A stretch of DNA of 64,000 bases, taken from assembly GCA_000415965.1 (NCBI GenBank), contig KE356560.1, positions 2,560,900 through 2,624,899 on the forward strand, read 5' to 3'. The DNA comes from Haloquadratum walsbyi J07HQW1 (lineage in GTDB: Archaea > Halobacteriota > Halobacteria > Halobacteriales > Haloferacaceae). The translations under genes and the position numbers were made by a program. Under the pieces are notes generated by a model that searched no databases, was not told the DNA's origin, and worked only from the letters and a program-made list of their open reading frames with translations. This document shows, in pieces, positions 20,198-60,554 of this stretch (its first letter is position 1; each line of letters opens with the position of its first letter).

Positions 20198-20333
20198 TAG
20201 CAGTCGTTGGGACTGTGAGTTTCTCTGCCGGTATTCGAAATTAGAGCGGAACACGCAACCCGGTGTTCCAGAGACACTGAGTCTGCGTGTGGGTTCAAGA
20301 AGGAACGCTGCTCAGAGTGTCACCAACTGATAA
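20198..20333 (+). repeat. MITE-like repeat, copy A
   Basis: First of eleven related copies. Left end reads CAGTCGTTGG-GACTGTGAG and right end CTCAGAGTGT-CACCAACTG, which are inverted repeats of one another. An inner palindrome GGAAC...GTTCC and a patch near CTGAGTCTG/GTGTGGGTTC recur in all copies. It lies 55 bases upstream of the DUF5822-like gene and carries no protein. Confidence 0.8.
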
Positions 20334-20681
20334 GCGATCGGATAATATCGAATCAATCGGTGAATCTTGATGGGTGAGTATCAGACACAATAAATTGAGT
20401 ATCGATGATGCTGATGAACGTCAATACCCGACAGTTCGTATTATCGATTTTATTCACGACCATTATATGTCTATTAGATAATATCATCACGTGGATATCG
20501 TGACCGGGACAAACGAGACTGTCAGAGAGTGATGTGTTGGGTAGGTGTAGCGATGAAATATAAGATTGATTATATTAATGATGCGATGGTGATAATTCGT
20601 GAGCGAACCGGAAACTGTGAACCGCAATACAACCACTGACTGGACGTCATTACTGCCGTCATGCGATTTCTGTGCGACAAA
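20334..20681. other. Upstream region of the CDC48 operon
   Basis: AT-rich and apparently non-coding. A frame from 20599 runs into the Hsp20-like gene but its first 41 residues span the promoter and lack family resemblance. Confidence 0.4.
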
Positions 20682-20690
20682 TTTATATAT
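20682..20690 (+). promoter_or_regulatory. TATA box of the Hsp20-like / cdc48 operon
   Basis: TTTATATAT, centre 20686, giving a start of transcription near 20712 and a leader of about ten bases before ATG 20722. GGAG at 20713-20716 could act as a ribosome binding site. Confidence 0.55.
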
Positions 20691-20721
20691 TACACTCCCT
20701 AACTTGTGGTTAGGAGACAAG

Positions 20722-20970
20722 ATGAAAACACAACAGTTCGCCGGCGAGAGCGGACGATTCAGCCGCCGGTATGAGTATGATGACAGTTGGGTCCTCGCCG
20801 TCGAATTAGGTCCCAGTGTAACCACCGTCGATGTCGACATCGTTGGAACAACAGCAATCATTATTGCGGAGACAAGTGATGGTACGATTGAGACGGAGTT
20901 CGAACTCCCAGAAGGTGAAACGGCAGTCACAGCAACCAACGGAATAATTACAATTACAATCGAACAATGA
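20722..20970 (+). CDS. Small Hsp20-like protein coupled to CDC48
   Basis: 82 residues, starting [20 protein letters not shown], all beta strands by inspection, with the pattern 'VEL...[15 protein letters not shown]' and an 'ELPEG...[13 protein letters not shown]' end like the core of alpha-crystallin/Hsp20 domains (Gly-x-Leu near the end becomes Gly-Ile-Ile). Short for Hsp20 and lacking the flanking arms. The stop overlaps the cdc48 ATG (ATGA), so the two are made together; a cofactor or client adaptor of the CDC48 ATPase is a reasonable guess, unproven. Confidence 0.68.
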
Positions 20971-23228
20971 AGCTTACTGTCAAACCACTCAAACAGAAGG
21001 ACGCTGGTCGTGGATTAGCTGCAATCGATCGTGATGTTGCCGCTGAACTCGATCTTGAGGGCGGCGATTACATTCGAATCGAAAGCGGAGATGGCACAGC
21101 GATTGCCCGAGTATGGCCCGGTTATCCTGATGACCAAGGCACAGGCGTCATTCGGATTGATGGGCAATTACGTCAACAGGCGAACGTCGGAATTGACGAC
21201 ACCGTTGATGTCGAAAAAGCTGATATCAAACCGGCAAAACACGTCTCAATCGCACTCCCACAGAATCTTCGCATCAGTGGGAACATTGGGGCACATCTCC
21301 GGGATAAGCTCTCGGGACAACCAGTGACACAAGGACAGAACATCCGAGTCCCATTTGGATTCGGGTTCATGTCCTCATCAGCACAGCCTATTCCGATGAA
21401 GATCGCATCGACAGAACCGTCAGGAACGGTGATTGTGACCGATTCAACTGAAGTAACACTCAGTCAGCAACCAGCTGAGGATATTCAGGCTGGTGGAAGT
21501 GAGGGGTCAAACACCCCAGCCGTTACCTACGAGGATATCGGTGGGCTCGAAAGTGAACTCGAGCAGGTCCGAGAGATGATCGAGTTGCCGATGCGTCACC
21601 CCGAGTTGTTCCAGCGGCTCGGAATTGAACCACCGAAGGGAGTGTTACTCCACGGTCCACCAGGAACCGGAAAGACACTCATCGCGAAGGCTGTCGCCAA
21701 TGAGATTGATGCAAGCTTCCATACGATCTCTGGTCCAGAGATCATGTCGAAATATTACGGCGAATCTGAGGAACAACTCCGTGAAATCTTTGAAGAAGCC
21801 GAAGAGGAAGCGCCATCAATTGTCTTTGTTGATGAGATAGACTCAATCGCGCCAAAACGGGGAGAAGCCGGTGGTGACGTCGAACGACGCGTCGTTGCAC
21901 AGTTACTCTCGCTCATGGACGGACTCGATGAGCGCGGTGAGGTTGTTGTTATTGGTGCAACGAATCGTGTTGACGCACTTGATCCAGCACTGCGCCGTGG
22001 CGGTCGATTTGACCGCGAAATCGAGGTTGGTGTTCCAGATCGCGAGGGGCGCAAAGAGATTCTTCAAGTGCACACGCGGAATATGCCACTCTCCGAAAGT
22101 GTTGATCTTGATGCGTATGCGGATAACACGCATGGATTCGTTGGCGCAGATATCGAAAGTCTCGCCAAAGAAGCGGCAATGAACGCACTTCGTCGAATTC
22201 GCCCAGAGCTTGATCTTGAGGCTGACGAGGTCGATGCAGATGTCCTCGAATCGCTGTCAGTGACTGAAACGGACTTCAAAGAGGCAATCCGAGGCATTGA
22301 GCCATCTGCCCTCCGCGAGGTATTCGTTGAAGTCCCTGATGTGACGTGGGGCGATGTTGGTGGTCTGACGGACACAAAAGAGCGATTGCGCGAGACAATC
22401 CAGTGGCCGCTTGATTATCCAGATGTCTTCGAGGAGATGGATATACAATCAGCCAAGGGCGTATTGATGTATGGTCCGCCCGGAACAGGCAAGACAATGC
22501 TTGCAAAGGCTGTTGCAAACGAGTCTGAATCGAATTTCATCTCGGTGAAGGGTCCAGAGTTATTGGACAAATACGTCGGTGAATCAGAGAAAGGTGTTCG
22601 TGACATCTTCAAGAAGGCACGAGAGAACGCCCCAACAGTAGTGTTCTTTGATGAGATTGATTCGATCGCTACCGAGCGAGGAGGAACAACAGGCGATTCA
22701 GGCGTTTCAGAACGGGTTGTCTCACAGCTACTGACCGAACTTGACGGGCTTGAGTCCCTCGAAGATGTGGTTGTAATCGCAACGACAAATCGACCTGATC
22801 TCATCGACGCTGCGTTGCTACGTCCAGGACGGTTAGACCGTCATGTGCATGTCCCTGTTCCAACCGAGACTGCGCGAGAAGCAATCTTTGAGGTGCACAC
22901 CGAAGAGAAACCACTGGCAGACAGTGTGAGTCTCTCACGACTTGCCTCGCGCACTGAGGGATACGTTGGTGCCGATATTGAAGCGGTATGCCGTGAAGCG
23001 TCGATGGCTGCAAGTCGGGAATTCATCAATAGTGTCTCACCTGAAGAGGTGAAAGAATCAGTCGGCAATATTCGAGTGACTATGGGACACTTCGAAGATG
23101 CCCTCGATGAGGTTGGTCCAAGTGTCACGCAGGAAACACGCGAACAGTACGAGCAGATTGAGCAACGCTTCGAGACGAGTAGTGTCGAGCGACAACCAGA
23201 GGCTGGCGTTGGTCGGACCTTCCAATAA
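20967..23228 (+). CDS. CDC48/VAT-type AAA+ ATPase
   Basis: Hexameric unfoldase that extracts and unfolds proteins, delivering them to the proteasome in archaea. 753 residues in the standard order: CDC48 N-domain (1-190; double-psi barrel '[20 protein letters not shown]'), D1 with Walker A '[20 protein letters not shown]' and Walker B '[16 protein letters not shown]', D2 with '[20 protein letters not shown]' and '[16 protein letters not shown]'. Both arginine-finger regions ([40 protein letters not shown]) are intact. No C-terminal hydrophobic-Tyr tail is seen; it ends VGRTFQ. Translationally coupled to the small Hsp20-like gene. Confidence 0.95.
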
Positions 23229-23449
23229 TAAATCCCGATAATCTCTGGGAATACAGGTTCTGTACTCAGCAGCATCGAAATGATTCTTTCGTCTGATGCT
23301 CTTTGCTTTCGGCAATCGATTGGGAATCACTAAGTCCTTCTCTGAGTGTCGAGACTGCTCGCCTCGCAGTTGCGTGAATACGCTTTTTTGATATGACTCT
23401 CCGATGTCATCATCAGTGTATGATTGATCATCAGGCAGGATTCTGGTAA

Positions 23450-23920
23450 CATCGGGTCAGTAAATAACACCAGTAGCATCAAAATCGGAGATAATCGATT
23501 CGAGTGGGTCGTAGGTGAAACACCCTCATGCGTAAATGCAATCATTCCCATCGGGTCGACAATGTATGTATCTCGAAATACGCCATCGAAGCTGTCAGAA
23601 ACATATTGTTCTTTACATATGAGTCATACACACTGCCAACAGTCCCATCGCCCGAGAGCAATGGAAACGAGAGATTATATTCAGTTGCGAAAGCATTGAG
23701 ATCAGAGATTGGGTCATCACTAATACCAATCACCGCAATTTCAGTTTCGGTGAATACATCGACCGTATCGCAGAATTCACACGTCTCAGTGGTGAATCTT
23801 GGTGTATCAGCGCGGAGAGAAATAGCCGATACCGCACTACTCACGAGAGGATGATAATGAGCCTGTCATTCCATCGTTTGATTGAGGGAAAGTCCGGAGC
23901 AGGTGAGCCAATCGCACGTA
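23450..23920 (-). pseudogene. Decayed thioredoxin-dependent peroxiredoxin (Bcp/AhpC-TSA type)
   Basis: Three pieces in different minus-strand frames line up with one peroxiredoxin. From about 23920 downward: 'GSPAPDFPSIKRW', matching the family N-terminus (G-x-x-APDF). Then 23844-23542: 'RADTPRFTTETCEFCDTVDV', where functional enzymes have the peroxidatic Cys in a TPGCTTEAC context, here changed to Pro-Arg-Phe, and 'IAVIGISDDPISDLNAFATE' with 'YNLSFPLLSGDGTVGSVYDS'. Then in a third frame 'YIVDPMGMIAFTHEGVSP', the C-terminal strand. At least two frame changes, loss of the catalytic Cys and a shortened N-terminal part mean it is dead. A MITE copy lies just upstream. Confidence 0.75.
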
Positions 23921-23932
23921 TGCACAATGCTG

Positions 23933-24065
23933 TTATCAGTTGTTGGAACTGTGAGTATCGTGAGCCGAATGTGAGGCGGAACGCACATACGGGCGTTCCA
24001 GATGGAACTGAGTCTGTGTGTGGTCTCGGAGAGAAACAATGGTTCGATTACTACCGACTGGTATT
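23933..24065 (+). repeat. MITE-like repeat, copy B
   Basis: Ends TTATCAGTTGTTGGAACTGTGAG-type (left) and CTACCGACTGGTAT (right), with the inner GGAACGC...GCGTTCC palindrome well kept. It sits about 13 bases upstream of the first recognisable codon of the dead peroxiredoxin and 30 bases downstream of the GINS gene end. Confidence 0.8.
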
Positions 24066-24095
24066 GCAGTGTTTCAACGACACGATTTCACTTCA

Positions 24096-25619
24096 TCAAT
24101 CAAGCCGTGTTGCAGCATCCCGAGACAAAAGCGGTTCGGCATTCGTCTCTGGAAGCATAATAATATCTTCTGCTGCAAGGTCATACTCACGCTGATCAAC
24201 GCCAAGGATGCGACCAACGTCGGCGGTAATACGAAGAATAACGCGGTCTGGGTCGTCGGAAGGAGTGTCTGGTGTTATCGTTGATTTTGAGTCCGGTTCT
24301 GGGTCTGATTCTACGTTGGTCTCGGTGACTGTTTCCGAACCTTCTCGTGGGGATTTATAACTCTTGTTTGTATCTGTATTTCTCTGTGTATTGAGACTGT
24401 CATCTGAGGTGTGGGTGATGTCCGTGGTTTGTGCAGAAGGCGTGATGGAAGCATCATTGGGGCGAGACTGAGAGTCAGACTCAGGCTCAACCGTAGAGTT
24501 AGAATGAAGATCTGCATCTTCCTGAGCTGTCTGGGGTAATGGATCAAGAGCAGAATCTTGCGTTCGATCTTCATCCTCACCTGGCGGCGTGACGTCTGAA
24601 TCATTTCTGTTCAGGTTTTTCGAATCTGGCTGTGCCGTCGTCTCACCGTTAGTCACCGAATCGGTCTGATTATCATCCACATTATCGATGTCTGTATTCA
24701 CAGCTGATGGATCGATAGCATCGACGATGTCGCCACCATCACCCATTGCAGCCGCAAGCACATCATCCGGGTTTGGGGGGACTGACTCATCAGATGAGTT
24801 TGCGTGTTGTCTCTCAGTGTCAATGTCAGTGTCAGTGTCAGTGTAGTGTGGGTGTGCGGTCTTCGGTTCGGTCTCGGTCTCGGTCTCGGTCTCACTGCCA
24901 GCATTCATCCCAGTTGTCGGATGCGAACCTAGTGTTGATGATGGGTCAGTACTGGTGTTATCTTCGCTATCAGCGTTAATCTCAGAGTGTGTATCCACAT
25001 TTGTCTCATCGCCACTAGCATCAACAACATCATCAGCGTCAGCATGAGTATCGCGAATGCCCGGTTGTGAATCAGTATCTTGGAGTTGAGACTCATTTGG
25101 GGCTGGAGTATTGTGTATATTATCCGATGATTCAGCAGGTATTGATTCCTCTGTGTCGTGCTGAGGTGGATTTTCATCCGCCGGTGAAGACGTTTCTGCG
25201 CCTGTTGAGTCTGAGTCTGAATCTTCTTCCCCCTCGCCACCAAGCACGCTGAGGACGTGTTCACGGTTCGTAATAATCCGAGCAACGAGATCATCAAATA
25301 GCTCGCGCTCTTCACTCGTCAGACCTGCAGTATCGGTTTTCATATCAGCCGCGTCGAAAGAGGCGAGTTTGACTACCTTCCCAATCCGGCGTTCATAAAT
25401 AGCTTGTACAACCTCCTCGGCAGTCTTGATTTCATCAGTCAGCCGTCCGACGGCAGGGTCACCAAATGGATCATCTGTTTTTGATGCAAGACGTCGTCGT
25501 TCAGCTTTCCGTTCAGCGATATATTCAGCAACATCCTCATAGAATGTATCAGATAGATGCTGCAGGCTATCCATCTGTCGCTCTGTCCGTTGGACATCCT
25601 GCAACTCGCTCAAATCCAT
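24096..25619 (-). CDS. GINS complex protein (Gins51-like) with a very long linker
   Basis: GINS tetramers join Cdc45/RecJ-like proteins and MCM in the replicative helicase. The N-terminal alpha-helical A domain (1-125; 'EVVQAIYERRIGKVVKLASF', 'LTSEERELFDDLVARIITNR') and the C-terminal B domain (last 55 residues; 'VILRITADVGRILGVDQREY', 'DLAAEDIIMLPETNAEPLL') are both recognisable. Between them lie about 330 residues of Asp/Ser/Thr/Glu/Gln-rich low complexity, including runs of alternating Thr-Glu and Thr-Asp. Archaeal GINS proteins are usually around 150-250 residues, so two thirds of this one is linker. priS follows upstream on the same strand, the gene pairing known in many archaea, which supports the assignment. 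Confidence 0.85.
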   Translation of the reverse strand: MDLSELQDVQRTERQMDSLQHLSDTFYEDVAEYIAERKAERRRLASKTDDPFGDPAVGRLTDEIKTAEEVVQAIYERRIGKVVKLASFDAADMKTDTAGLTSEERELFDDLVARIITNREHVLSVLGGEGEEDSDSDSTGAETSSPADENPPQHDTEESIPAESSDNIHNTPAPNESQLQDTDSQPGIRDTHADADDVVDASGDETNVDTHSEINADSEDNTSTDPSSTLGSHPTTGMNAGSETETETETEPKTAHPHYTDTDTDIDTERQHANSSDESVPPNPDDVLAAAMGDGGDIVDAIDPSAVNTDIDNVDDNQTDSVTNGETTAQPDSKNLNRNDSDVTPPGEDEDRTQDSALDPLPQTAQEDADLHSNSTVEPESDSQSRPNDASITPSAQTTDITHTSDDSLNTQRNTDTNKSYKSPREGSETVTETNVESDPEPDSKSTITPDTPSDDPDRVILRITADVGRILGVDQREYDLAAEDIIMLPETNAEPLLSRDAATRLD

Positions 25620-26011
25620 CTGTTGTGATTCAAATATTGTCGCTCATAACGCACATTCATCTCTCGTTTCCGCAGATAGGTCGCGGTAATTTCCAATCAA
25701 GGGTAATAATCATTACCCTAAATAGTTTATTTCACGGTCGAAACAGGCGACTCTGTTAGTGATATATTCTTTTTGTGCATTGATGTAACTGTGGATTTGG
25801 GTATCTGATATCGCATAAATCTCAGCTGATAGGCACCCGACTGCAGAGTGAATCGCCTCAAAGTCACATCAAACCCTCTGGGCATTCTCCTTATATTCTG
25901 TATCGGTAGTCGCGATAACAATAATCAGAACCAACTCCTCTTTATTTCTGATGATCAGACTGTGGACCGTGTGCGTTCTCGGTTGAGTGAGTGTAGGTAA
26001 ATCCGCACAGA
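25620..26011. other. Gap between priS and the GINS gene
   Basis: 392 bases without a convincing gene. Contains the palindrome at 25700-25719 and, on the minus strand near 25850-25890, a short sequence (about GTTTGATGTGACTTTGAGGC) that recurs near 37890 and 54740. The region separates two genes that elsewhere often adjoin. Confidence 0.4.
25700..25719. promoter_or_regulatory. Perfect palindrome upstream of the GINS gene
   Basis: AGGGTAAT, spacer AATC, ATTACCCT. Eight-base arms, 80 bases before the GINS start. It could be an operator or a priS terminator. The same half-site occurs at 53474-53488. Confidence 0.4.
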
Positions 26012-27169
26012 TTATGCGCTCACCTTCTCAGCCCGACCGCGAGTCATCAGAAAGATTCCAAGACACTCTTCAACGGTGTTTTTCCCCTCAGCAAGATTGA
26101 ATGTCTCACCATTAAACGTCGTCACTCCAGGGTCGGTGACTCGTATCTGTATGTCTCGACCCCGAAATCGCTCTGGGATAGCGTGCTCAAGTGGATGAAA
26201 TGAGGGGATTTCCTCGCGGTCAAGTGGGGTAACCAGCAGTCCCGAGCCACCGTGAAGGCTTCCAGGGAGTCGAATCAAGCGGTTCGTGTCGGTCGTGACT
26301 GGCTCATCAATCGGTGCGGTCTCTTGTTCAAACGCCGTTTGGGCAAGTGCATCGACAAGAATACGAATCCCCGTGCCGCCAGCTTCGAGATTCCCTGCCT
26401 GGATTGCCTCTGGATTGGTTTTGATTTGGGTAAGAATTGTCTCTGCTCGTCCTGACCCAATCCCCTCAAATGATTGTAATCGTTCAACTGCCGTTGTATC
26501 ATCGACTGATTGGAGAGTCTCGATGAGTTCGAGTAGCCGCTTGTGAATCCGGCGTCCCCACCCACCACGATGTCTCAGAATCCGCTGTGTCGTTCCGCGA
26601 TTTGATCGTGTATCGATAAGTGTCTCAATGTTTAGATCGATTGCGCGAATATAATCAACAATCTCTCGACGAGCAGCGCTATCAAGAGAACGAATCCCTT
26701 CATCACGAACGTGCACGTGATATCCCCGCCCGCCAGAGAAAACGACCTGTGTTTCATCGAAACTAAAATCATCGTCAATAAACGCAAGTAGCGTTTGAAG
26801 ATCCGCCTTGCATGCTGTGAGCATGTCTGCATATGAGGTGGTCTCAGGGTTGATCCCTGGAAGGTGATCAGCATCAAGATCAAATATAAGATCAGCCGAC
26901 TGCCAGCCCTTTTGATCCATTGGTGTTGCACCCGGATCAGTAAATCGTGCCGCAGAGAAATACACGTGCTTTGGTGCAGTCCGATGGAGGAAATCATCAA
27001 GATCGCCTAACTCAAGCAGCGACTGATGACGGATCATTGTCGTGCCTCCGGCACTCCACGGAATATGTCCCCACTCACGGCGATTAGCTGCCGGCGGCGC
27101 ATCCATCTGAGCGCGAGCATAGTAATCGCCGAAACGGCCTTTCAGATACGTCCGAGTACGATCCTCCAT
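26012..27169 (-). CDS. priS: DNA primase, small catalytic subunit
   Basis: Archaeal-eukaryotic primase catalytic subunit that starts Okazaki fragments, normally with PriL. The metal-binding Asp-x-Asp lies in '[18 protein letters not shown]' (about residue 100), and the nucleotide-binding '[18 protein letters not shown]' about 50 residues on. '[20 protein letters not shown]' carries the third conserved catalytic region. 385 residues is normal for haloarchaea. Faces hisD across a 200-base divergent promoter region with an ATTTAATTTAATTTAATTT repeat. Confidence 0.93.
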
Positions 27170-27373
27170 CGCTCACGATATATCCAAGGCGAGGCTAAAT
27201 TGGTTGCGTCTCAGCCTCGCTGACACTGTCTGATGAGATAATCTCACAGAGAGATAGGTGGCTGCGAAGAAGGATTAATTGCATTTAATTTAATTTAATT
27301 TTACATATAAATCTCGATCCACGTCTGCATCTGTATCCGGAATATCCTTGCCGACAGACATCAAATCGAGAAT

Positions 27374-28699: not shown

Positions 28700-28879
28700 G
28701 AACACACTGCTGATAAAGATACGAACGTTCGGAGACACTGTTTGGATTGAGAAGTGAACAGGCAGAAGCAGAGGCGGGGGGCTGAGCGGACAGCATAGTA
28801 TGATTCTTCACCGTTCGATTACATTGCCGGATTTGCCACCGTTCCCGCAAGATTTCCGCAATTTAGGTGGCAAAATGAG

Positions 28880-30733: not shown

Positions 30734-30857
30734 GTAACAGTTCTTGGTAATTTGACTTCTGTATCCGAAGCTGCAGCGGAACGCGTCACCGGACGTTTCA
30801 GTTGAGGTGAGTGTGGTTTCGGATAGACACAGTAGTCATATTGCCAACGACTCTTAA
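30734..30857 (+). repeat. MITE-like repeat, copy C
   Basis: Left end GTAACAGTTCTTGGTAATTTGAC, split here as GTAACAGTTC-TTGGTAATTTG; right end GTCATATTGCC-AACGACTC. The inner palindrome is GGAACGC...ACGTTTC, one mismatch. It lies upstream of the transporter gene and beside the TnpB relic, in host-like AT-rich composition. Confidence 0.72.
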
Positions 30858-31016
30858 CTGCTACTCGGGTTGGAGACACCGACTTGACAGGGACACGTCC
30901 TCGACTCGAACCTGGATGCCACTGTCGGAGATGCGCCGTGTGAAGTCACTCTCATAACGCTCTACAATGACATGATCGGCAGTCCTTGCCCTCGCAGGAC
31001 CAGGACCGTGACCGTA

Positions 31017-31385
31017 CTCACCACCCTTGACCGTGAGACACTGCGGACGGAGGGCGTGCTCGTCGTTGAATATGGGCAGATCAAGCAGGAACCCCACCAC
31101 TACCGCTCCCACACAATCAGGAAATGCTGTCAGGAACGCAGGAAGACGAGCATCCATGATCAGCTCGGTGATAACGAAGAGGGATTTGCCGAGTGGGTGT
31201 TGCATCGACTCTCCCGTGCTATCGTTGAGTTCACCAGACAGTTCTCAAACCCGGCTGCCGTGTTCAAGAATACGAGCGGTATCCGCGAGGAAATGCAGTA
31301 CAGGATGTATATGAACCGGCGATTACACAAATTTCCGTTCCACAAGTTCGAGACGTTTGTCTCATACAAGACGACGTGGCGGTAA
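31017..31385 (+). pseudogene. TnpB middle/C-proximal fragment
   Basis: 'LTTLDRETLRTEGVLVVEYG', 'WVLHRLSRAIVEFTRQFSNP' and 'NRRLHKFPFHKFETFVSYKT' match haloarchaeal TnpB (IS1341 type) from just after the first RuvC motif to the helix before the zinc finger, where a TAA ends it. The zinc-finger end is missing. Together with the fragment at 29297 it suggests one interrupted element. Confidence 0.7.
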
Positions 31386-32293: not shown

Positions 32294-32411
32294 ATAGCAG
32301 TTGTTGTGACTGTGATTTCTTTATTTGAATCGGAGCGCGCACACGGAGGTTCCAGATAGACTGAGTGTGGCTTCGGAAAGAAACATCGCTCAGATTGCTA
32401 CCGACTGATAG
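32294..32411 (+). repeat. MITE-like repeat, copy D
   Basis: Left end ATAGCAGTTGTTGTGACTGTGA (shown as ATAGCAGTTG-TTGTGACTG), right end CTCAGATTGCTACCGACTGA. Inner palindrome reduced to GGAGC...GTTCC. It lies in the 530-base gap between the IscA-type gene and the next gene; the rest of that gap shows nothing else. Confidence 0.8.
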
Positions 32412-33175: not shown

Positions 33176-33308
33176 TAGCAGTTATTGGTAATTTGATCTC
33201 TGTATCCAAAGCGGAACACACACAGACGTTCCAGATGAACTGAGACTGAGTCTGAGTCTAAGTGTGGATGCAGAGAAAAACGCTGCTCAGAGTGCCACCG
33301 ACTGATAC
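33176..33308 (+). repeat. MITE-like repeat, copy E
   Basis: Left end TAGCAGTTATTGGTAATTTG, right end CTCAGAGTGCCACCGACTGA. Inner GGAACAC...GACGTTCC. It ends five bases from the stop codon of the convergent gene at 33313. Confidence 0.8.
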
Positions 33309-33312
33309 CAGA

Positions 33313-35162: not shown

Positions 35163-35479
35163 TGGGTGATGAGTCGTTGATTATTTTGATCCCTGATTGA
35201 GATTGCTCACTTCGAATCACATCTATAACAGTAGTTGCAAACACGGCGATTCGGCTCAGCAGCCCCTGTCGAAAAAGTACTTGTGTCGGGGCGGCGATTT
35301 TGAAGAGTTCCTCGTTAGTCTCACGGAACATCCGTAAGACGGACTCCTATGAGGACTTCCGAAGATGCTACGTGAGATTCTGTCCGGTTGGAATGTCGTA
35401 TCGTCGTAGAACGGCTTGTAGTTGAGATTCTTTGCGGCGTCATTGACGAAGTCCGTTCCCGTTCCCGTTCGCGGCGGCG
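35163..35479. other. Gap leading into a foreign relic
   Basis: A minus-strand frame (35137-35331, containing 'FRETNEELFKIAAPTQVLFR') looks partly coding and might be a transposase or gene remnant; I cannot name it. GC rises towards 35480. Confidence 0.3.
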
Positions 35480-36010
35480 ATGAGCACCCGGCGCTCGCTC
35501 ACGAGACGATCACGGGTCGCCGGGAGGACTGGCGGAGGTAACAGCAGACGACGAAATGGTACGTCCACGCTGACGACCCGGCAGTGCTCCCGCTTGCCGA
35601 GGACTGGAGGGTCTCCAGTTCGGTGGCAAACGGAACTACGGCTACAGCGAGGTCCGGCTGAAGGACACGCAGATGGTGAGGCTCAATGAACTCGAACTGG
35701 ACTACTCGTGGCTCGAAGACGTGGAGATGTCCCTCATCAAGTTGGTGACGCCGTTCGTCCTGGCCTCGGACTATCCAGAGGCGACCGACCGCACAATCCC
35801 GCAGTGGGCGGAAGACCGAGATGATCTCCGGTTCCGCGAGGAGAAGATCCTCGAGAAGCGTGAGGTGTTCCGGCTGGAGACGGTCGATCACGGACAGGTC
35901 CTAAAGTACCTCGGCGACCGCTCGTGAAGACCGTCAAGAACGGTCTCACACGGGTCGGCTCACACTCCCGAGACGGCTTCGGTTTCGGTGAACAGCGGCT
36001 GAAGCCCCTC
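35480..36010 (+). pseudogene. GC-rich decayed foreign gene, unidentified (RAMP-like glycine loops?)
   Basis: Composition jumps to well over 60% GC. One frame gives 'KWYVHADDPAVLPLAEDW'; after a frame change, 'LQFGGKRNYGYSEVRLKDTQ' and from 35673 'MVRLNELELDYSWLEDVEMS' through 'REEKILEKREVFRLETVDHG' to a stop at 35927; in a third frame 'GLTRVGSHSRDGFGFGEQRL'. So at least two frameshifts. The Gly-rich pieces 'FGGKRNYGYSEV' and 'GSHSRDGFGFGE' recall the glycine loops of RAMP-fold proteins, but this is weak. I do not recognise the gene. Confidence 0.5.
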
Positions 36011-36305
36011 GGCGAACAGTCTCATAACTCAGAGAGGGAACAACTGAGTGACCACCAATGCAGCAGCAAAATCAGAATCAGGATGAACCGAGCGAGAAAA
36101 TACAGCGCCGCGGCTGAATAAAGAAATCGTATTATTAACAACTGATAACGCCATCTTAGCGGATCACTGGTCATAAACTGTCTGTGGTCACTCCTTTGAT
36201 AAGTTCACATGTCGATTTTGTTGTCTGATGACGAAGACTCGCGAATGATTTCAGTGTTGGTGCGTACCGAGGAATATTTTCGCGCTGGCATCTCATCACC
36301 ATGAG

Positions 36306-41798: not shown

Positions 41799-41944
41799 TG
41801 ACAGTCATTGGCAATATGCTCACTGCGTCTCTTCGAGAACATACTCATTTCACCTGGAACGCCTACTTGCACGCTCCGCTTTGCTGCGAAGAAAGAAACA
41901 GACACTGAAACTGAAACTGAAACTCACGGTCCTAGCGAGTGATA
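41799..41944 (-). repeat. MITE-like repeat, copy F (diverged)
   Basis: In reverse orientation: TGACAGTCATTGGCAATATG at the left, ACTCACGGTCCTAGCGAGTG at the right, and GGAACGC...GCTCCGC inside. It carries an extra CTGAAACTGAAACTGAAACT run. It lies between the trmB-type gene and the RHH gene, whose TATA box starts 45 bases after it. Confidence 0.65.
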
Positions 41945-51994: not shown

Positions 51995-52470
51995 TATTCG
52001 GAGCGACGCAAAATCAAAGCCTTGCGGGTGAGAATGAACTCGACAAATAGTATCCACCCACCAGAGATGCCAGGAGTCATTTGATTCAATTGCGACAGTC
52101 ATAATTACTCAAAAAAGCCAGTCATCGAGAAAACTACAAAGAACTGTGCGTGAAATCATATATTTTCTTCATGAACAGCAACGTCAGCCCCGCGGAAGCA
52201 GCGGAAGCCTCGCGCTTTCGTTCCGAACGCGTGTCAATCGCAATCAATATGATATCAATATCAAATATTAATATGAGTATTCACGTCAATGTCGATGCCG
52301 ATAGCGACAGATATGATCATCGTCAGGGACCACACTCAGGGTTATTTTATCGGATACGTAACTCCGGATCCTCCACGGGTAACTCAAGACTAGATAAAGG
52401 TGTCATCGAACTATGCTCAGCGAGCGTTGAGATGACTGTTGATCAGTAATCACTCGCGGAGTATCGTGGG
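51995..52470. other. Gene-free gap
   Basis: 476 bases between convergent genes; no credible ORF, repeat copy or fold beyond short AT-rich palindromic patches near 52250 (GATATCAATATCAAATATTAATATG). Confidence 0.35.
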
Positions 52471-53247: not shown

Positions 53248-53473
53248 GACTATAGCTAATAAATGAGTAATCATAAATATACTGTCGAAATACGGGTGAA
53301 TAATGTCGCTTCGTCCGGTTTCTGAAACAGAGAATGAATCAAGAATGCGGATGCTGACTGCTCAGTTATGATGTGGATGATGACCTTCTTTCAGTAATTG
53401 GTAATTTTGGTCGTGAAATGAACGTGGGTATACTCGCCCCAGAAGAGAATTCAGCAATTGAGCAATATGTGAG

Positions 53474-53488
53474 ATTACCCGGGGTAAT
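53474..53488. promoter_or_regulatory. Perfect palindrome upstream of the EamA exporter
   Basis: ATTACCC, spacer G, GGGTAAT, 42 bases before the start codon. Same half-site as at 25700-25719. A repressor operator is plausible. Confidence 0.45.
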
Positions 53489-53530
53489 AAACGTTGAAGC
53501 ACAAAACACAATATTCAGACGGTCGCCTCT

Positions 53531-54466: not shown

Positions 54467-54560
54467 CTATTGATAGCATTGTTATCGCGAGTGACTATCT
54501 TTGATGCTGGAGAGAGACATTCATCACTCGGAGATACTCTCTGTGAATAATCAAGCGCAT
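54467..54560. other. Gap between EamA gene and MITE copy G
   Basis: No feature seen apart from proximity to the repeat. Confidence 0.3.
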
Positions 54561-54690
54561 TATAACACTCGTTTGGAATCTGAGCACTGTTTCTCTCTGA
54601 GCCCACACACAGACTCAGTTCATCTGGAACGCCTGTGCGCACGTTCCGGTGTAAGTTCGAATACCGACACTCACAGTCCCAATAACTAAG
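54561..54690 (-). repeat. MITE-like repeat, copy G
   Basis: Reverse orientation. Left TATAACACTCGTTTGGAATC, then TGAGC; right CTCACAGTCCCAATAACTAA; inner GGAACGC...ACGTTCC. Beyond it, at 54735-54800, lies the third copy of the GTGACCCTGAGGCGGTT-like sequence, here degraded and next to a TCATCACCATCATCATCA tract. Confidence 0.78.
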
Positions 54691-54816
54691 AATCGAGTTA
54701 CAAACAAACCATCACAACGGTTAAGAAAACGGATCTGCTGTGAACCGCTTCGGGGTTACATCATCATCACCATCATCATCAAATCTCTGAGGCACTTGCC
54801 TCGCTTTCTCTGTAGA

Positions 54817-55215
54817 TTACTCCTCAGTATCGACTTCATTGATATTCTCTGGGTCAAGTGTAATCTCGTCATTATTTTCAGACAGTGATTCGGGATCAGA
54901 TTCAGTTTTCTCACTCGTAGACCCAGTAACGTCATTTTGATCAACTGCCTCGGCTCGGAGTACCTCACCAACAAATGTCCATTCATCTGTGGAGTCGCTA
55001 CGACGCCCAGCAAGAACTTCTTCGCCATCATCGCTCGTGATGAATCGATACGGCGTTTCATCGTCAATACGATGCCCCTCAGCTTGGAATTCCGCCTCAA
55101 AGAACTCGGTGTTTTGCATCTCAAAGACACCCGAGCTTCCATCGGATAAAAATAACCGAACAGGCGCCGGAGAGACACTATCGATCTGTTTCGCCACCGG
55201 GTTCAGTTCAGCCAT
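54817..55215 (-). CDS. Conserved haloarchaeal protein of unknown function, acidic
   Basis: 132 residues from ATG 55215 (MAELNPVAKQIDSVSPAPVR). A small beta domain (LFLSDGSSGVFEMQNTEFFE, TPYRFITSDDGEEVLAGRRS) is followed by a tail of about 45 Glu/Asp/Asn residues. The pattern is shared with haloarchaeal hypothetical proteins of Sm-like or barrel type as far as I can judge; no function is known. The GTG at 55221 is a possible alternative start. Confidence 0.6.
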   Translation of the reverse strand: MAELNPVAKQIDSVSPAPVRLFLSDGSSGVFEMQNTEFFEAEFQAEGHRIDDETPYRFITSDDGEEVLAGRRSDSTDEWTFVGEVLRAEAVDQNDVTGSTSEKTESDPESLSENNDEITLDPENINEVDTEE

Positions 55216-55355
55216 TGTCACTCAATATGTTTGGTATCGATTCAAAAGTTACTGTCGGCTACTCTAGATAGAAGAGATGATAATAACGGGTCCATGTGAA
55301 TGTGTGAGCTTGTGTACCCACCACAGTCGGTGCCGGTTTCACTCCCGGTGAGCGC

Positions 55356-55481
55356 ACAGCAGTCGTTGGGAATCTGAGCATTGTTTCTCACCGAAGCCAC
55401 AGTCATTTGATTTGGAACGCTCAAACGAACGGTTCGTTTGGAATACCGACACGGAAACTCACAGTCCCACCAACTGATAGG
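55356..55481 (-). repeat. MITE-like repeat, copy H
   Basis: Reverse orientation. Left ACAGCAGTCGTTGGGAATCT, right ACTCACAGTCCCACCAACTG. Its centre has a second palindrome, AACGAACGGTTCGTT, not seen in the other copies. It lies between the divergent-facing gene at 54817 and the kinase gene; nothing else occupies 55216-55655. Confidence 0.8.
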
Positions 55482-55655
55482 CTCTCGATTGGAGGCTGGT
55501 TCACGGCGATCTGTATCTATAATTGATATGATACACCGAGTGGTTTCCTCTCGCAGGGACACTCATAGGATTTGACCTTTGCTCTGTATAAAATCACGGA
55601 GGGAACAGTAATTTGAGCATCAGCATTCACAGAGAATGATGCCGCTGGTAATTAA

Positions 55656-56270
55656 TCATACCACGACATCGTCAGTTTTGAATGCGCCTTCGTCATCAGT
55701 CGGTTCGTACTCATCAATCGCAGTCAGTACCATCTCAAGTGCTGCATCTTCTCCCCATCGAGCAGTATTAATCGAGAGATCATAGAACGATTGGTCAGTA
55801 ACATCAATATTGTAATATGACTGATATCGACCGGCTTCACTGACCTCTCGAACACGCATCTCAGCCTCCATCTCATCGCGGTCACGCGTCCGGTCAACGC
55901 GGACTTCATCCGGTGCGTCGAGCCAGATACGAAGATCTGCGCGGTTACCAGCGAGCCATCCGGCAAGACGTGCCTCAAGAATGAATGGATTATTTGCTGC
56001 ACCCCATTTTTCAGCTATCGTCCGGAGCCGACGATCAAGCGCACGGTCGATCTCATCAGTTTCGTCAGTCTTTGCAATGAGTTGCGACAGCGACATTCCG
56101 CGTTCATCAGCGAGTTCCCGGAAGATGTCTCCACCAGAGACGTATCCGCAGTTGAGCGCCTCTGAAAGCCCATCACAAAGCGTTGTTGCACCACACCCTG
56201 GCGGTCCAGAGACTGTGATAAAGAGATTACTATCAACTGACCGCGGGGTTGAAGTACTCTTGTCTGTCAT
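55656..56270 (-). CDS. Cytidylate-kinase-like P-loop protein lacking the P-loop lysine
   Basis: 204 residues. Overall order matches archaeal CMP kinase: 'LFITVSGPPGCGATTLCDGL' (P-loop), 'CGYVSGGDIFRELADERGMS', 'ETDEIDRALDRRLRTIAEKW', 'PFILEARLAGWLAGNRADLR', 'IWLDAPDEVRVDRTRDRDEM', 'AGRYQSYYNIDVTDQSFYDL'. The P-loop reads GPPGCGATT where kinases have GKS/GKT: the lysine that contacts the phosphates is Ala. From memory, haloarchaeal relatives share this, so it is probably a conserved feature and not a recent mutation. Kinase activity is therefore doubtful. Confidence 0.72.
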   Translation of the reverse strand: MTDKSTSTPRSVDSNLFITVSGPPGCGATTLCDGLSEALNCGYVSGGDIFRELADERGMSLSQLIAKTDETDEIDRALDRRLRTIAEKWGAANNPFILEARLAGWLAGNRADLRIWLDAPDEVRVDRTRDRDEMEAEMRVREVSEAGRYQSYYNIDVTDQSFYDLSINTARWGEDAALEMVLTAIDEYEPTDDEGAFKTDDVVV

Positions 56271-56498
56271 AATATCTGAGGATTCCCATCACCGAACAAA
56301 AACCCGCGGAAATGAACACAAAAATATCAGATATATAACATTGAGACGCCTGTATCAATGACAGCGAGATATATGAGTGTTATATTTCAGACATGTTCTG
56401 ATCTCACGTGTTCGACAGTTGCATACATTGTCCGGACAAGCAGTGTTGATCGTGATCGTTACTCGTTACCGGCCTGATCAATTATACCGAATATATCG

Positions 56499-57182
56499 AT
56501 GAATGATAATACCGAAGTAGATACTGAGTATGTTACTGAATTACACGCTAACCGGAATGAAAAGGATGAATTCTTTCGCTCACATCCACAATCGCCGCTT
56601 TCAGATGACGCGCGTGAGGCGTTTGATGGATTATCATATTTTGACCCAGATCCATCATGGCGCGTCACAGCAACAGTTGAGACGCTCGCTGTTGATCCTG
56701 ACGATGCTGATGATCATGATGGTGAGACGGGTACAACTGCTGATAGTGACGCTGGCGGACAGCAACAGGACTCATCACAGCAGATGATCTATGAGCCGGT
56801 TCCGATGGAAACCTCTACCGGTGAGACAGTCCGGTATGTTCGCGTTGCCAGATTCCAATTTGAGCGAGCAGACACAACACAACAACTCATCGGCTATCGA
56901 CAGCGTCCGGATGATCAAGATGAGGCGTTATTCGTTCCATTTCGCGACAAGACAACCGGACAGGAAACATACGCCGGTGGGCGATATCTTGAATTACATC
57001 CAGATAAGGCACTGACCGATGACTCGACCGTTATGATTGATTTTAATCTTGCATATACGCCATTTTGTGCGTATAATGATGCCTTCTCATGTCCACGTCC
57101 ACCAGAGGAAAACTGGCTTGATATTCCTGTGCGCGCCGGCGAACGTGATTGGACCGGAGAGACAGCGATGTTCACCGAGTGA
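56499..57182 (+). CDS. DUF1684-family protein
   Basis: 227 residues. 'EYVTELHANRNEKDEFFRSH', 'SPLSDDAREAFDGLSYFDPD', 'YVRVARFQFERADTTQQLIG', 'DEALFVPFRDKTTGQETYAG', 'GRYLELHPDKALTDDSTVMI', 'DFNLAYTPFCAYNDAFSCPR', 'PPEENWLDIPVRAGER': all hallmark segments of DUF1684, a family with a conserved Cys/Asn/Pro-rich core (N-P-x-C-A-Y-x-x-x-x-x-C-P-x-P-P-x-x-N). Function unknown. An acidic low-complexity insertion of about 25 residues lies near residue 70. Confidence 0.85.
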   Translation: MNDNTEVDTEYVTELHANRNEKDEFFRSHPQSPLSDDAREAFDGLSYFDPDPSWRVTATVETLAVDPDDADDHDGETGTTADSDAGGQQQDSSQQMIYEPVPMETSTGETVRYVRVARFQFERADTTQQLIGYRQRPDDQDEALFVPFRDKTTGQETYAGGRYLELHPDKALTDDSTVMIDFNLAYTPFCAYNDAFSCPRPPEENWLDIPVRAGERDWTGETAMFTE

Positions 57183-57301
57183 ATAAGCAATAATCGTCAG
57201 CGATTCGCGTCCCCTCGGAGTAGATTATTGATTGATAACACCGACAAATCGAAAGCGAGGAAAACGCAAACACCATATTCTCTCATTCGCATTCCCTCTG
57301 T

Positions 57302-57490
57302 ATGGGACTCCTCAGCAACCGACGAGTGCTCATCGGTGCGATATTTATGATTGTTGGGACAATTCTCCTGCTGCCAGCGGTGCTACCAAATATCGGGGAA
57401 TTCTTCACATATGCACTTCTTCCTGGGGCTGCGCTACTCACATATGGGACGTGGCTTGTTGGAACTTCAGAGAGTGGTCCGGCAGTATGA
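57302..57490 (+). CDS. Small two-helix membrane protein
   Basis: 62 residues: 'VLIGAIFMIVGTILLLPAVL' and 'YALLPGAALLTYGTWLVGTS' are two membrane helices separated by a short loop. Unrecognised family. Starts at ATG 57302. Confidence 0.55.
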   Translation: MGLLSNRRVLIGAIFMIVGTILLLPAVLPNIGEFFTYALLPGAALLTYGTWLVGTSESGPAV

Positions 57491-57578
57491 GTGTCTAATA
57501 TCGCAATCACCAGCATTCTGAAATACCGTAATAGATGTTCTTTTCAGTGTTGCTACAAACTATATCTACAGCATATCG

Positions 57579-57911
57579 ATGACATTTATCACAAAACTTA
57601 GTTTTCAATCTGGTGACCGGTACGTGCTCGAAAAGGAAGTCTCAAATCTCAAGACGCTACTTGAAAAGAAAGGGGCTGAATGTAAAGGTCCACACGCCGA
57701 CCCACCAAAAGAAATAACTGTTCCACAATACCGATGTCTTGCCCCAGGTGATCAGTTCAATTCATGGCAATACACCGTTTATGCGCGCCATCTTGAGATT
57801 CACGGAAATGATCATATTGCTCGTGAAGTCGGTCATATGGATTTTCCAGATAGTATTCACGTCGAGATTGAACTTGAACAACGAAAACCAGCGGGTCATA
57901 GACAATCATAG
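57579..57911 (+). CDS. uS10/mL48-family ribosomal protein paralogue
   Basis: 110 residues. 'MTFITKLSFQSGDRYVLEKE', 'KGAECKGPHADPPKEITVPQ', 'WQYTVYARHLEIHGNDHIAR', 'MDFPDSIHVEIELEQRKPAG' follow the S10 fold: strand, helix, 'G P x P x P' loop, final strands. This is the second, diverged S10-like protein seen in haloarchaea, distinct from the S10 that lies with elongation factor genes; ribosome binding is unproven. Alone in its transcription unit. Confidence 0.8.
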   Translation: MTFITKLSFQSGDRYVLEKEVSNLKTLLEKKGAECKGPHADPPKEITVPQYRCLAPGDQFNSWQYTVYARHLEIHGNDHIAREVGHMDFPDSIHVEIELEQRKPAGHRQS

Positions 57912-58020
57912 CCAATCGAACCGTCAATACTGATTTTTGAGTGCGAATCTAATTGTGGAAATAAGAGAGTATGTGACCTGGTGAGTTCCCCGACACGGTC
58001 AGTCACCTGCGATAAGTTGC

Positions 58021-58156
58021 TTAACAGTTGGTGGGACTGTGATTTCTGTCTCCGAAGTTGCAACCGAACGCGCACACAGTCGTTCCAGGTGAACTGAGTG
58101 TAGGTGTGGGTGTGGATTCGGAGAGACACAGTGGTCAGATTGCCACCGACTGGTAA
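58021..58156 (+). repeat. MITE-like repeat, copy I
   Basis: TTAACAGTTGGTGGGACTGT at the left, CAGATTGCCACCGACTGGTA at the right: the clearest terminal inverted repeat in the set. It is 18 bases before copy J, same orientation. Confidence 0.85.
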
Positions 58157-58174
58157 CTCCGGAGCGGGAGCCGA

Positions 58175-58299
58175 ATCAGCAGTTATTGGTAATTGATTTT
58201 CATTCTTCGAAACGGAGCGGAACACACAGGCGTTCCAGATGAAATGAATATAATTGTGGTCTCTGAGATAAGCAGTGCTCAGATTACCAACGACTGTTG
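58175..58299 (+). repeat. MITE-like repeat, copy J
   Basis: TCAGCAGTTATTGGTAATTG at the left, CTCAGATTACCAACGACTG at the right; inner GGAACAC...GCGTTCC. Tandem with copy I in the gap before the M20 gene. Confidence 0.82.
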
Positions 58300-58471
58300 T
58301 TGAGACATGCTGAGAGATTATCGGGTTAGCAGGTATCGATCCAAGAGATCTCAGAAAATCATCGATGAGATGCACTCGCTTGAACTGTCATCGCGTGATG
58401 TGAGTCGTGTTGAGGAATCACAGGCAAATAAAAGCCTGAGGATTAAGTCTCTCGACTGCGCAGTGTCTGCG

Positions 58472-59830
58472 ATGACACGTGCTGAGTTAGTGACACTGCG
58501 TCGTGATTTGCATCAACACCCTGAACCTGCATGGCGAGAGTTTTACACGACCGCTCGCTTAGTTGATGAATTAACAACCCGTGATCTTGATGAGATATAT
58601 ATTGGACCTGAGGTGCTTGGTGGTGATAGGCGAGGGGTACCCGACGATGAGGAAATATCCACATGGCGCACTCGTGCAAAAGAGGCAGGCGCTCGGGAAG
58701 ATGTGCTTGAACAACTCTCCGATGGATGGACAGGCGTCTGCGCGGTTATCAAGTGCGGTCCTGGACCAACGATTGGGCTTCGAGTGGATATCGATGGGCT
58801 TCCAATCACTGAGTCGACCGATGATGCACATCAGCCAGCAAGCGAGGGATTCCGCTCGGAAATGGACGGACATATGCATGCCTGTGGTCATGACGCCCAC
58901 GCGGCGATTGGCATCGGTGTTCTTGATGCGATTATCGAAACGACCAATCTGGATGCTGAGAAAACACATCAAGAGACGAGTGAGACTGCGGTTGATGAAG
59001 GGATTATCGGAGATAATACGAGTGAGTTCACGGGAACGTTGAAGATATTTTTCCAACCTGGTGAGGAGCAGATTGTCGGCGGGAAGCCAATGGCAGCATC
59101 TGGGCGACTTGACGACATTGACGCGCTCTTTGCTGTACATATTGGACTTGATCATCCCTCAGGTGAGGTCGTCGCTGGGATAGACAACTTCCTTGCTGTT
59201 TCTCATTTTGAAGCGGAGTTCACTGGAATGCCCGCGCACGCAGGTGCCCGACCAGAGGATGGTGATAACGCAGTGCAGGCAATGGCGACGGCAGTACAGA
59301 ATCTCTATGCGGTCCCAAGGCATACAGACGGTGCGACACGAGTCAACGCAGGCGTCGTCTCTGGGGGCACAGCGACGAATATTATTCCCGAGCATGCGAT
59401 GATACAGGGCGAAGTTCGTGGTGAAACAACAGAACTGATGGAGTATACTGAGTCGAAAGCAACACAGGTGCTTGAATCAGCGGCAACGATGCACGACTGT
59501 GAGGTTGAAATCACCACAGCAGGAAGGGCTCCATCTGCGACGAGTGATGATATGCTTGCGGATATTGTCGCCACGGTCGCCACAGATATCGATGATATTA
59601 ATTCGATTATTCGATCTGATGATCTCGGTGGAAGCGAAGACGCTACCTTCCTCATGCGGCGGGTACAACAGCGCGGCGGCGTAGCAGCGTATATTGGGGT
59701 TGGGACAGACCACCCTGGTGGACACCACACAGACACGTTTGATATCGATGAAGCATCGATTGGTCACGGCGTTGAAATCCTGACAAACGCAATTATGAAA
59801 GCTGAACATGAATTGCAGACATCAGAGTAA
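58472..59830 (+). CDS. M20-family metal-dependent amidohydrolase
   Basis: 452 residues from ATG 58472. 'ELVTLRRDLHQHPEPAWREF' opens the family; metal ligands lie in 'MDGHMHACGHDAHAAIGIGV' (His, Asp), 'LKIFFQPGEEQIVGGKPMAA' (Glu pair) and near the end 'GVGTDHPGGHHTDTFDIDEA' (His). The dimerisation lid domain sits between ('ADHFEAEFTGMPAHAGARPE'-type strand). Relatives cleave N-acyl amino acids, aminobenzoyl-glutamate or auxin conjugates; the substrate is unknown. An insertion of about 35 acidic residues lies near residue 165. The open frame starts at 58307, but the TATA-like AAATAAAA at 58425 and loss of resemblance upstream favour 58472. Confidence 0.85.
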   Translation: MTRAELVTLRRDLHQHPEPAWREFYTTARLVDELTTRDLDEIYIGPEVLGGDRRGVPDDEEISTWRTRAKEAGAREDVLEQLSDGWTGVCAVIKCGPGPTIGLRVDIDGLPITESTDDAHQPASEGFRSEMDGHMHACGHDAHAAIGIGVLDAIIETTNLDAEKTHQETSETAVDEGIIGDNTSEFTGTLKIFFQPGEEQIVGGKPMAASGRLDDIDALFAVHIGLDHPSGEVVAGIDNFLAVSHFEAEFTGMPAHAGARPEDGDNAVQAMATAVQNLYAVPRHTDGATRVNAGVVSGGTATNIIPEHAMIQGEVRGETTELMEYTESKATQVLESAATMHDCEVEITTAGRAPSATSDDMLADIVATVATDIDDINSIIRSDDLGGSEDATFLMRRVQQRGGVAAYIGVGTDHPGGHHTDTFDIDEASIGHGVEILTNAIMKAEHELQTSE

Positions 59831-60412
59831 TGCATATCTCATGATAGAGATTTGAGGAGAATCCCTGCGGCTTTAGCTGTCCTCAGAAATTTGTGACTTC
59901 TGGTGTGTAAACGAGACCAGCGGTCTCGGTAACGCAGGATGAATCCGACAAAATCTCCGCGATCAAACTCCGAAAGCATCCATGAATATTCCACAGCAGT
60001 GAACCGCTTAATCAGAGATAAAAATAATTTATTATGAGGTGTTCCAGGTGTTGGAAGTGCATACTGCTCATTGAGCAAAAATCTGCAACCATTCACAGGT
60101 TTCCGAGCCGCTCAACCAGTACGGCTGGAGTTGTAGTGTCAACAAACTCTGGAACGATCTCAGATACGTCTGAGAGCCCGTGAGGCGTCGTCTCACGACG
60201 TCGGCAACTGCCATGACTGAGAGGTCTGGGGCGAAACGGGCGAAATCCCTGACCATGGAGGCCTGAGACACGAGTTGAGGCCAATCCAAAATACGACGGC
60301 TGCACTCGCAATCCAGTCAGCAGGTTTTTGAGGAACTCGCTGAAGTCTTCATCTCGTGGGGCTCTCGCGATGATGACAAGGATAATTCACCCGGCTACCG
60401 TAAAAAAGAGTA
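59831..60412. other. Relic region: IS605-type end and unidentified fragments
   Basis: 59845-59885 reads GGAGAATCCCTGCGGCTTTA then GCTGTCCTCAG, like the end of a haloarchaeal TnpB element; at 59912-59928 CGAGACC/GGTCTCG forms a perfect seven-base hairpin. On the minus strand 60000-60340 short frames look like decayed coding (e.g. 'WSRLHTRSHKFLRTAKAAGI') that I cannot name. Confidence 0.4.
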
Positions 60413-60554
60413 TTAACAGTTGTTGTGACTGTGATTTCTGTCTCCGAAGTTGCAACCGAGCGCGTTACCGGGCGTTCCAGCTGAATTCAGTCTGAGTGTA
60501 AATGTGGGTGTGGGTTCGGAGAGACACAGTGGTCAGATTGCCACCGACTGGTAA
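60413..60554 (+). repeat. MITE-like repeat, copy K
   Basis: TTAACAGTTGTTGTGACTGT at the left and CAGATTGCCACCGACTGGTA at the right. Very close to copy I over most of its length (GTCTCCGAAGTTGCAACCGA in both). It lies directly before the remains of a tnpB gene, perhaps inside the original element. Confidence 0.85.

Follow-up and report, generated by a model that had tools for sequence, protein, structure and literature searches.

The 64,000-nucleotide stretch of Haloquadratum walsbyi J07HQW1 analysed here (contig KE356560.1, positions 2,560,900 to 2,624,899 of the forward strand; hereafter the window) carries eleven copies of a short repeat and, between the fifth and the sixth, the remnant of a larger transposon (Table 1). 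A preliminary description, made from the sequence of the window, had taken the repeats for non-autonomous transposons resembling miniature inverted-repeat transposable elements (MITEs). We searched the whole window with a profile built from 37 copies without structure (model R1) and found exactly eleven matches, all at expectation values (E) of 4e-17 or lower; up to E = 1, the remaining rows were just two weak antisense self-hits. All eleven repeats first listed are thus present, and both ends align across copies. Their starts had been placed at the right loci, with the true ends lying 3–5 bp further inside, and their lengths, first given as 120–145 bp, measure 110–140 bp in the window. The alignment bears out inverted-repeat ends common to the copies, although these are imperfect, with CAGTYGKTGGNANTNTGA at both MITE ends. 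The reported inner palindrome GGAACGC/GCGTTCC is real but not universal, the copy at 55360 having a different core. As described, the first 20 kb contain no copy by profile search, and the elements are short and without coding capacity, their overlaps with mechanically called open reading frames (ORFs) being partial. That no intact gene is interrupted fits synteny, with the reservation that copies overlap mechanical ORFs of at least 120 aa in four places: 20201, 30738, 41802 (three bases) and 58025/58180. At the copy at 20201, similarity to genome C23 ends at 20192, immediately before the element. Copy lengths often fall in six-bp steps (110, 116, 122, 128, 134, 140, 146, 152 bp; window copies and loci L002–L030), which are accompanied by a variable run of TGAGTG/TGTGGG-like hexamers.

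Insertion of the repeats left a clear signature in the flanking DNA. Among the 37 copies, a set that leaves out two of 30 loci, L022 and L025, for their unclear ends, and two loci repeating window copies, 4-bp flanks were identical in 14, against 3.9 expected from shuffled flanks, and 0 of 5,000 shuffles reached as high a value. Lengths of 2, 3 and 5–9 bp gave no significant excess of identical flanks in these copies. The signal sits in the outer two of the four positions (28 and 31 of 37, against 13–14 expected) because nearly all copies prefer targets with TA at the two inner positions. The duplication is 4 bp long, of the form NTAN, and lies immediately outside the element, next to CAGT at the left end and ACTG at the right; the target shows little preference outside these four bases. 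A second set, drawn from other stretches and genomes, gave 25 exact 4-bp duplications in 49 copies, against 3.7 expected (0 of 5,000 shuffles as high); the 49 come from 75 matches, the rest being partial or repeats of copies already used, and some are orthologous pairs between genomes and so not fully independent.

The family had been described as dispersed over 40 kb, but its copies occur genome-wide. In the window's genome (G000; a single contig of 3,475,501 bases) the profile detects at least 150 MITE copies, whereas in C23 it detects 21. A scan for the terminal-repeat pattern with up to 2 mismatches gave 197+212 = 409 matches, against 8+7 = 15 for the reversed control pattern, which excludes chance as the source of the MITE ends and from which about 200 copies can fairly be inferred. 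Many non-coding insertions in one region of J07HQW1, a published trace of this pattern, are reported in PMC4330952. The window and the DNA just beyond it (2.58–2.65 Mb) show a local excess: among 139 listed positions of the 150 scored matches, 15 copies fall in a 66-kb span, picked after the data were seen, a density reached in 0 of 5,000 random placements, while the 10 copies of a 40-kb span were equalled in 16 of 5,000. This clustering could reflect local hopping or DNA tolerant of insertions. Across 170 genomes of the taxonomic family, searched with stricter filters and 20 candidates scored per genome, the profile matched in 12 genomes from 6 of 28 genera. A plasmid collection searched with one MITE copy gave no match at E <= 1; exact-pattern scans of collections of genome contigs and viral contigs also found nothing, which is weak evidence, given the strictness of the patterns and the possible exclusion of records close to the genome of the window.

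The preliminary description had named empty sites and target duplications as the checks on mobility. Regions of 78.5 kb in C23 and J07HQW2 that cover the stretch collinear with the window contain no MITE copy at E <= 1, and at nine of the eleven window sites the orthologous flanks in C23 enclose a shorter, element-free interval (36 bp against 163 in the window at copy 2, 38 against 180 at copy 6). The copy at 33179 is comparable with J07HQW2 only, where the interval is longer yet without the element, and the copy at 30738 lies inside a block missing from both C23 and J07HQW2. The intergenic DNA of these two relatives has diverged too far for breakpoints at the window sites (five of the eleven copies shown) to be placed to base level. 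Some insertions are older: next to a broken RAMP gene (see below), G000 and C23 have two MITE sites in common (L107, L116), with identical 4-base flanks. Kin of the family in another genus give that resolution: at insertion L206 of genome G021, the sister species G020 has an uninterrupted target, in which TTAA occurs just once and the flanks on either side match over a long distance. G021 also carries five identical 111-bp MITE copies, every one with a perfect duplication, which suggests a recently active source of transposase. Of 12 copies examined in four genomes outside Haloquadratum (G020, G021, G022 and G093), 11 have exact duplications, in G093 after a three-base extension of the match to the end. 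The GGAACGC/GCGTTCC dyad is retained in the MITE copies of distant genera, which suggests a putative binding site. Thus inverted ends, a 4-bp duplication, absence in relatives, the empty site of kin and termini like those of a DDE transposon (see below) support the identification of the repeats as MITEs.

What moves these elements? The driver transposase had been said to lie outside the window. No intact one is present; at 35229–36144, however, lies a dead derivative of the element that probably served as driver. It starts CAGTAGTTGC, finishes TTAACAACTG and encloses fragments of an ISH3-like DDE transposase gene and of a RAMP gene. An intact copy of the RAMP gene, whose product resembles Cmr3/Cas5 RAMP proteins, lies elsewhere in the genome (1,960,283–1,961,200), and a second remnant of 2,670 bp (973.8–976.5 kb) has both ends and flanks ATAA/ATAA. 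Eight DDE_Tnp_1 loci occur in the genome (L031–L038). L038 belongs to the remnant at 974 kb, the left end of which appears in the scan; the other seven, considered as drivers, showed no plausible pair of family ends in a loose scan judged by eye. Loose end-pairing over twenty stretches of G000 and the window returned mostly chance pairs and was not used. In stretch L139, the same run of end-pattern matches appears twice (11714–12287 and 16923–17496) near assembly gaps, suggesting duplication or misassembly around the best-preserved transposon of this type in the genome.

Relatives on haloarchaeal plasmids have the RAMP gene within a few kilobases of a transposase gene, and complete elements exist in other haloarchaea. 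The complete elements measure 5.8–6.6 kb, have the same kind of ends and 4-bp duplications, and encode a DDE transposase together with a cassette of Cas7-like, unknown and Cas5-like genes. The element of Natrinema pellirubrum plasmid pNATPE01 (6,569 bp, both ends, flanks GTAT/GTAT) encodes a 626-residue transposase; it also contains a ParE-like/RHH pair, a winged-helix protein, small genes and a three-gene row encoding a Cas7/Csm3-like protein, a 246-residue unknown protein and a Cas5/Cmr3-like protein. That of Halobacterium salinarum NRC-34001 (6,008 bp, GTAA/GTAA) seems partly decayed, with an IS6 transposase gene inside and the first two cassette genes unannotated. Genes annotated or matched as a RelE/ParE-like toxin with an RHH or Phd/YefM-type antitoxin are also present in the Halobacterium and Natrinema plasmid elements L124, L149 and L125, as are genes so identified as winged-helix or MarR regulators.

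In named genomes, a scan located the Cas5-like gene at 53 loci. A right-end-like sequence follows the gene by about 100 bp at 28 of these loci, under a search that tolerates up to 6 mismatches (17 of the 28 begin with exact CAGT, and several others keep the inner part alone); the remaining 25 have no such right end. A transposase match, in some cases a mere fragment, lies within 9 kb at 15 of the 53. Eight loci have both ends, and seven of these have identical 4-bp flanks (Table 1). All three cassette genes are in open frames in the Haloferax and the 5,757-bp Halopiger elements. Four of the seven identical-flank elements have no full transposase, and the Halovenus element among them keeps all three cassette genes; such elements could be non-autonomous or have been deleted after insertion. 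Loci L152, L153, L169 and L193 are elements of this type, 3.4–4.0 kb long, with terminal repeats and flanking duplications but without a full transposase. The Halopiger transposase, which has 93% identity to its H. hubeiense counterpart, represents a second lineage with 35% identity to the first. The same cassette accompanies both lineages in complete elements, the first in N. pellirubrum and Haloferax and the second in Halopiger.

ISH3 elements end C-GT and are flanked by 4–5 bp duplications. The best family match of the transposase fragment was to NCBIfam NF033541 (E 7e-24), the ISH3 family transposase model, at a score of 84.5 bits for the tested fragment, below the cut-off of 225; no match over the cut-off was found with this model in G000. 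Unlike the 298-position model, the driver transposase is about 610–630 residues long. The DDE domain PF01609 is recognised above its cut-off of 23 in the full N. pellirubrum protein (43.8 bits) and in the Halomicrobium protein (37.2 bits). Other ISH3-like pieces are present in the window's genome, for example at 76 kb and 305 kb.

Profile matches of the cassette are distant: Cmr3 at 2e-7 and, for the Cas7-like protein, PADLOC Csm3 at E 2.5e-4 and Pfam RAMPs at E 0.012, below the cut-off. The structure model of the Cas7-like protein (predicted local distance difference test, pLDDT, 44) was too poor for searching. With that of the Cas5-like protein (pLDDT 60), Foldseek placed Cas6, Csm, Cmr and type VII chains first, all weakly, with unrelated proteins lower, and profile searches of the PDB gave nothing significant (Csm4 at E 0.43). 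No CRISPR-like array was found in the three elements searched, although in the Haloferax element a 22-nt repeat occurs as a single imperfect pair. Searches of the N. pellirubrum element recognised no nuclease family. The content of the cassette recalls HRAMP, a haloarchaeal RAMP module reportedly described by Makarova et al. in 2019. Two reviews (PMC8730458, PMC12669027) present HRAMP as diverged Cas5 and Cas7 homologues of haloarchaea without an array, found beside nucleases, most often HNH or PD-(D/E)xK, and with a function that is predicted only. Judged by these descriptions, the cassette resembles the HRAMP module in that its Cas5- and Cas7-like genes are diverged and accompany a third, conserved gene coding for an unknown protein; unlike HRAMP as described, it lies inside a DDE transposon with terminal repeats and flanking duplications.

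Several observations tie the MITEs to this HRAMP-type transposon. The preliminary description had pointed to a transposase gene with the same termini as something to look for, and the HRAMP-type element has related ones, with up to 20 of 22 terminal bases in common (driver right end against the left end of MITE copy L079:4804). In the 37-copy set, the MITE left end matches the driver right end at a mean of 16.5 of 22 bases and a maximum of 18, whereas 122,868 other 22-mers of the window reach at most 16, two of them doing so. MITE and driver agree in ends, duplication length and TA-centred target. They also co-occur: within the genus, the RAMP gene, whole or in pieces, is present in every one of the five genomes with MITEs, against 3 of 12 others, and G000 alone has 44 such matches.

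How could the MITEs be mobilised? A DDE transposase acting in trans would recognise the CAGTTGTTGG...-type inverted ends of the MITEs and insert them at a TA-centred 4-bp target, which would thereby be duplicated as NTAN. The transposase would most likely be supplied by a 6–7 kb transposon that has ends of this kind and makes an identical duplication, encoding a roughly 610–630-residue ISH3-like transposase and the Cas7-like/unknown/Cas5-like cassette. The MITEs would have arisen by retaining little beyond the ends of such an element, and 35229–36144 would be a deleted copy of it. Judged from comparison of sequences, we consider it likely that the family has been moved in trans by the transposase of this HRAMP-type transposon, whose remnant lies in the window. 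The link between MITEs and driver is strong but inferential: both the mobilisation of the MITEs by this transposase and their origin from the ends of such an element are conclusions that we draw from the likenesses above.

A number of results weigh against this account. MITE and driver have just about 22–30 terminal bases in common, and their interiors are unrelated; by profile, the MITE core is absent from 31 driver-type loci, with one partial match far outside the cassette. The MITE right end is less like the driver ends (means of 13.9 and 11.9 of 22). We found no uninterrupted driver-type transposase in the window's genome, the best copies being in pieces and one lying beside assembly gaps. 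Gaps at 1.947–1.961 Mb of this assembly might still hide an intact driver. The Halomicrobium element has both ends yet differing flanks (TTAA/ATAG), as does the Halomarina element. A single window copy has an exact duplication, nine match at three of four bases and that at 58180 at one of four; with just one of eleven keeping a perfect duplication, the majority of copies in the window appear to be old. Another candidate empty site (L207, G021 against G020) rests on nine left-side bases, and the clustering of the MITEs could mirror tolerant DNA.

Coordinates and properties of the window features and of the both-end elements from the scan of named genomes (Table 1).
Feature	Source	Position	Strand	Length	Flanks	Remarks
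MITE copy 1	window	20201..20329	+	129 bp	ATAG/ATAA	
MITE copy 2	window	23937..24060	+	124 bp	TTAT/GTAT	
MITE copy 3	window	30738..30853	+	116 bp	GTAA/TTAA	
MITE copy 4	window	32298..32407	+	110 bp	ATAG/ATAG	exact 4-bp duplication
MITE copy 5	window	33179..33304	+	126 bp	ATAG/ATAC	
MITE copy 6	window	41802..41941	-	140 bp	TTAT/TCAT	
MITE copy 7	window	54566..54688	-	123 bp	TTCT/TTAT	
MITE copy 8	window	55360..55476	-	117 bp	CTAT/CTGT	
MITE copy 9	window	58025..58152	+	128 bp	TTAA/GTAA	top profile score among window copies
MITE copy 10	window	58180..58296	+	117 bp	TCAG/TTGT	no visible duplication
MITE copy 11	window	60417..60550	+	134 bp	TTAA/GTAA	
Dead derivative of probable driver	window	35229..36144	+	916 bp	ATAA/ATAA	both ends
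ISH3-like DDE transposase fragment	window	35287..35496 (G000:C1:2596186-2596395)	-			59% identical over 68 residues, three stops
Cas5/Cmr3-like RAMP gene fragments	window	35467..36037 (G000:C1:2596366-2596936)	+			pieces 84%, 73%, 74% identical, broken frame
Both-end element	H. salinarum DSM 3754				GTAA	
Both-end element	Haloferax sulfurifontis			6,341 bp	TTAT	transposase matched over 614 residues
Both-end element	Natronolimnohabitans				ATAG	
Both-end element	Halovenus				TTAA	
Both-end element 1	Halopiger djelfimassiliensis				GTAA	
Both-end element 2	Halopiger djelfimassiliensis	L162 5266-11022		5,757 bp	ATAT/ATAT	nearly perfect ends; transposase matched over 605 residues
Both-end element	Haloquadratum LUM.47				ATAT	
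Both-end element	Halomarina				ATAG/ATAC	differing flanks

The window holds traces of other mobile DNA. Among the MITEs, 30972–31385 is a remnant with a C-terminal fragment of an IS200/IS605 TnpB gene (TIGR01766, E 2e-8), and the end of a short ORF at 61136–61498 resembles by eye the TnpB C-terminus (NADVNGAENI), with no match in NCBIfam.

Could the repeats be something other than transposons of this kind? The recurrence of the inner palindrome across genera would favour a family of conserved RNAs, regulatory or structured, that multiplied through duplication and not transposition. The long hairpin into which an RNA copy had been said to fold shrinks in the alignment to an inner hairpin of 6 bp (consensus fold of 6 pairs, -3.6 kcal/mol, covariation term 0.02), an Rfam search of the window gave 0 matches, and the palindrome is conserved as sequence, in a manner that would better suit a DNA-binding dyad. 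Given also the target duplications, the absence at orthologous sites, the empty site and the inverted termini, we reject a regulatory RNA as hardly credible. The small mobile repeats (SMRs) of Haloquadratum fall in the same size range and the same genus. In PMC3119063, SMRs are described as about 110 bp long, with inverted ends unrelated to known transposons, inserted into palindromes of IS605-type elements without target duplication. Set against this published description, our family shows a clear duplication (14 of 37, 25 of 49) and ends that match a transposon, which makes its identity with SMRs highly improbable. Palindrome-associated transposable elements (PATEs) differ in being without terminal inverted repeats, which the repeats here have. 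Compared by description, the family is close to the H. walsbyi MITEs of the HqIRS series (Dyall-Smith et al. 2011), which are likewise short (under about 500 bp), with inverted ends and duplications; that paper (PMC3119063) records that H. walsbyi has MITEs without a functional driver, for example HqIRS39, which matches transposon HqIRS12, all copies of which are disrupted. The family studied here may be one of the five MITE families already catalogued in H. walsbyi; taken alone, it is a mobile element of an ordinary kind, though a large family.

A closer contest concerns the driver. The repeats could be true MITEs whose driver is some other member of the ISH3/IS4 superfamily that we have not seen; the HRAMP-type transposon would then be just a relative with similar ends. 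In favour of this, the right ends of the MITEs (CAGTCGGTGGCAATCTGA type) are a poor fit to both driver ends, the assembly has a completeness of about 90%, and other ISH3-like pieces exist in the genome, as noted above. Yet seven of the eight DDE_Tnp_1 loci showed no plausible family-type ends by eye in the loose scan and the eighth is the HRAMP-type remnant, while HRAMP-type elements have both ends and the duplication and co-occur with the MITEs. We therefore regard an unseen driver as unlikely and retain the HRAMP-type transposon as the probable one.

It is this DDE transposon with its HRAMP-like cassette, and not the MITE family, that deserves attention. CRISPR-associated transposons (CASTs) are likewise transposons with a CRISPR-derived effector module, described in PMC12669027 as Tn7-, Mu- or telomeric-transposon-associated, whereas the driver-type element is ISH3-like. 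The larger element might be an archaeal counterpart of CASTs, in which a complex of the Cas7- and Cas5-like proteins with an unrecognised RNA would guide the targeting of the ISH3-like transposase or silence competitors, hundreds of MITEs being by-products; we hold this possibility to be quite improbable. One cassette is paired with two transposase lineages only 35% identical, both pairings occurring in complete elements with matching ends and exact 4-bp duplications. We found no description of transposon-borne HRAMP in the open-access literature, which did not include the founding HRAMP paper. Transposons that have matching ends and are flanked by target duplications enclose an HRAMP-like cassette in several genera of haloarchaea. 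Should the module be transposon cargo, what it does there becomes testable, whether target choice, defence of the element or a passive role as plain cargo.

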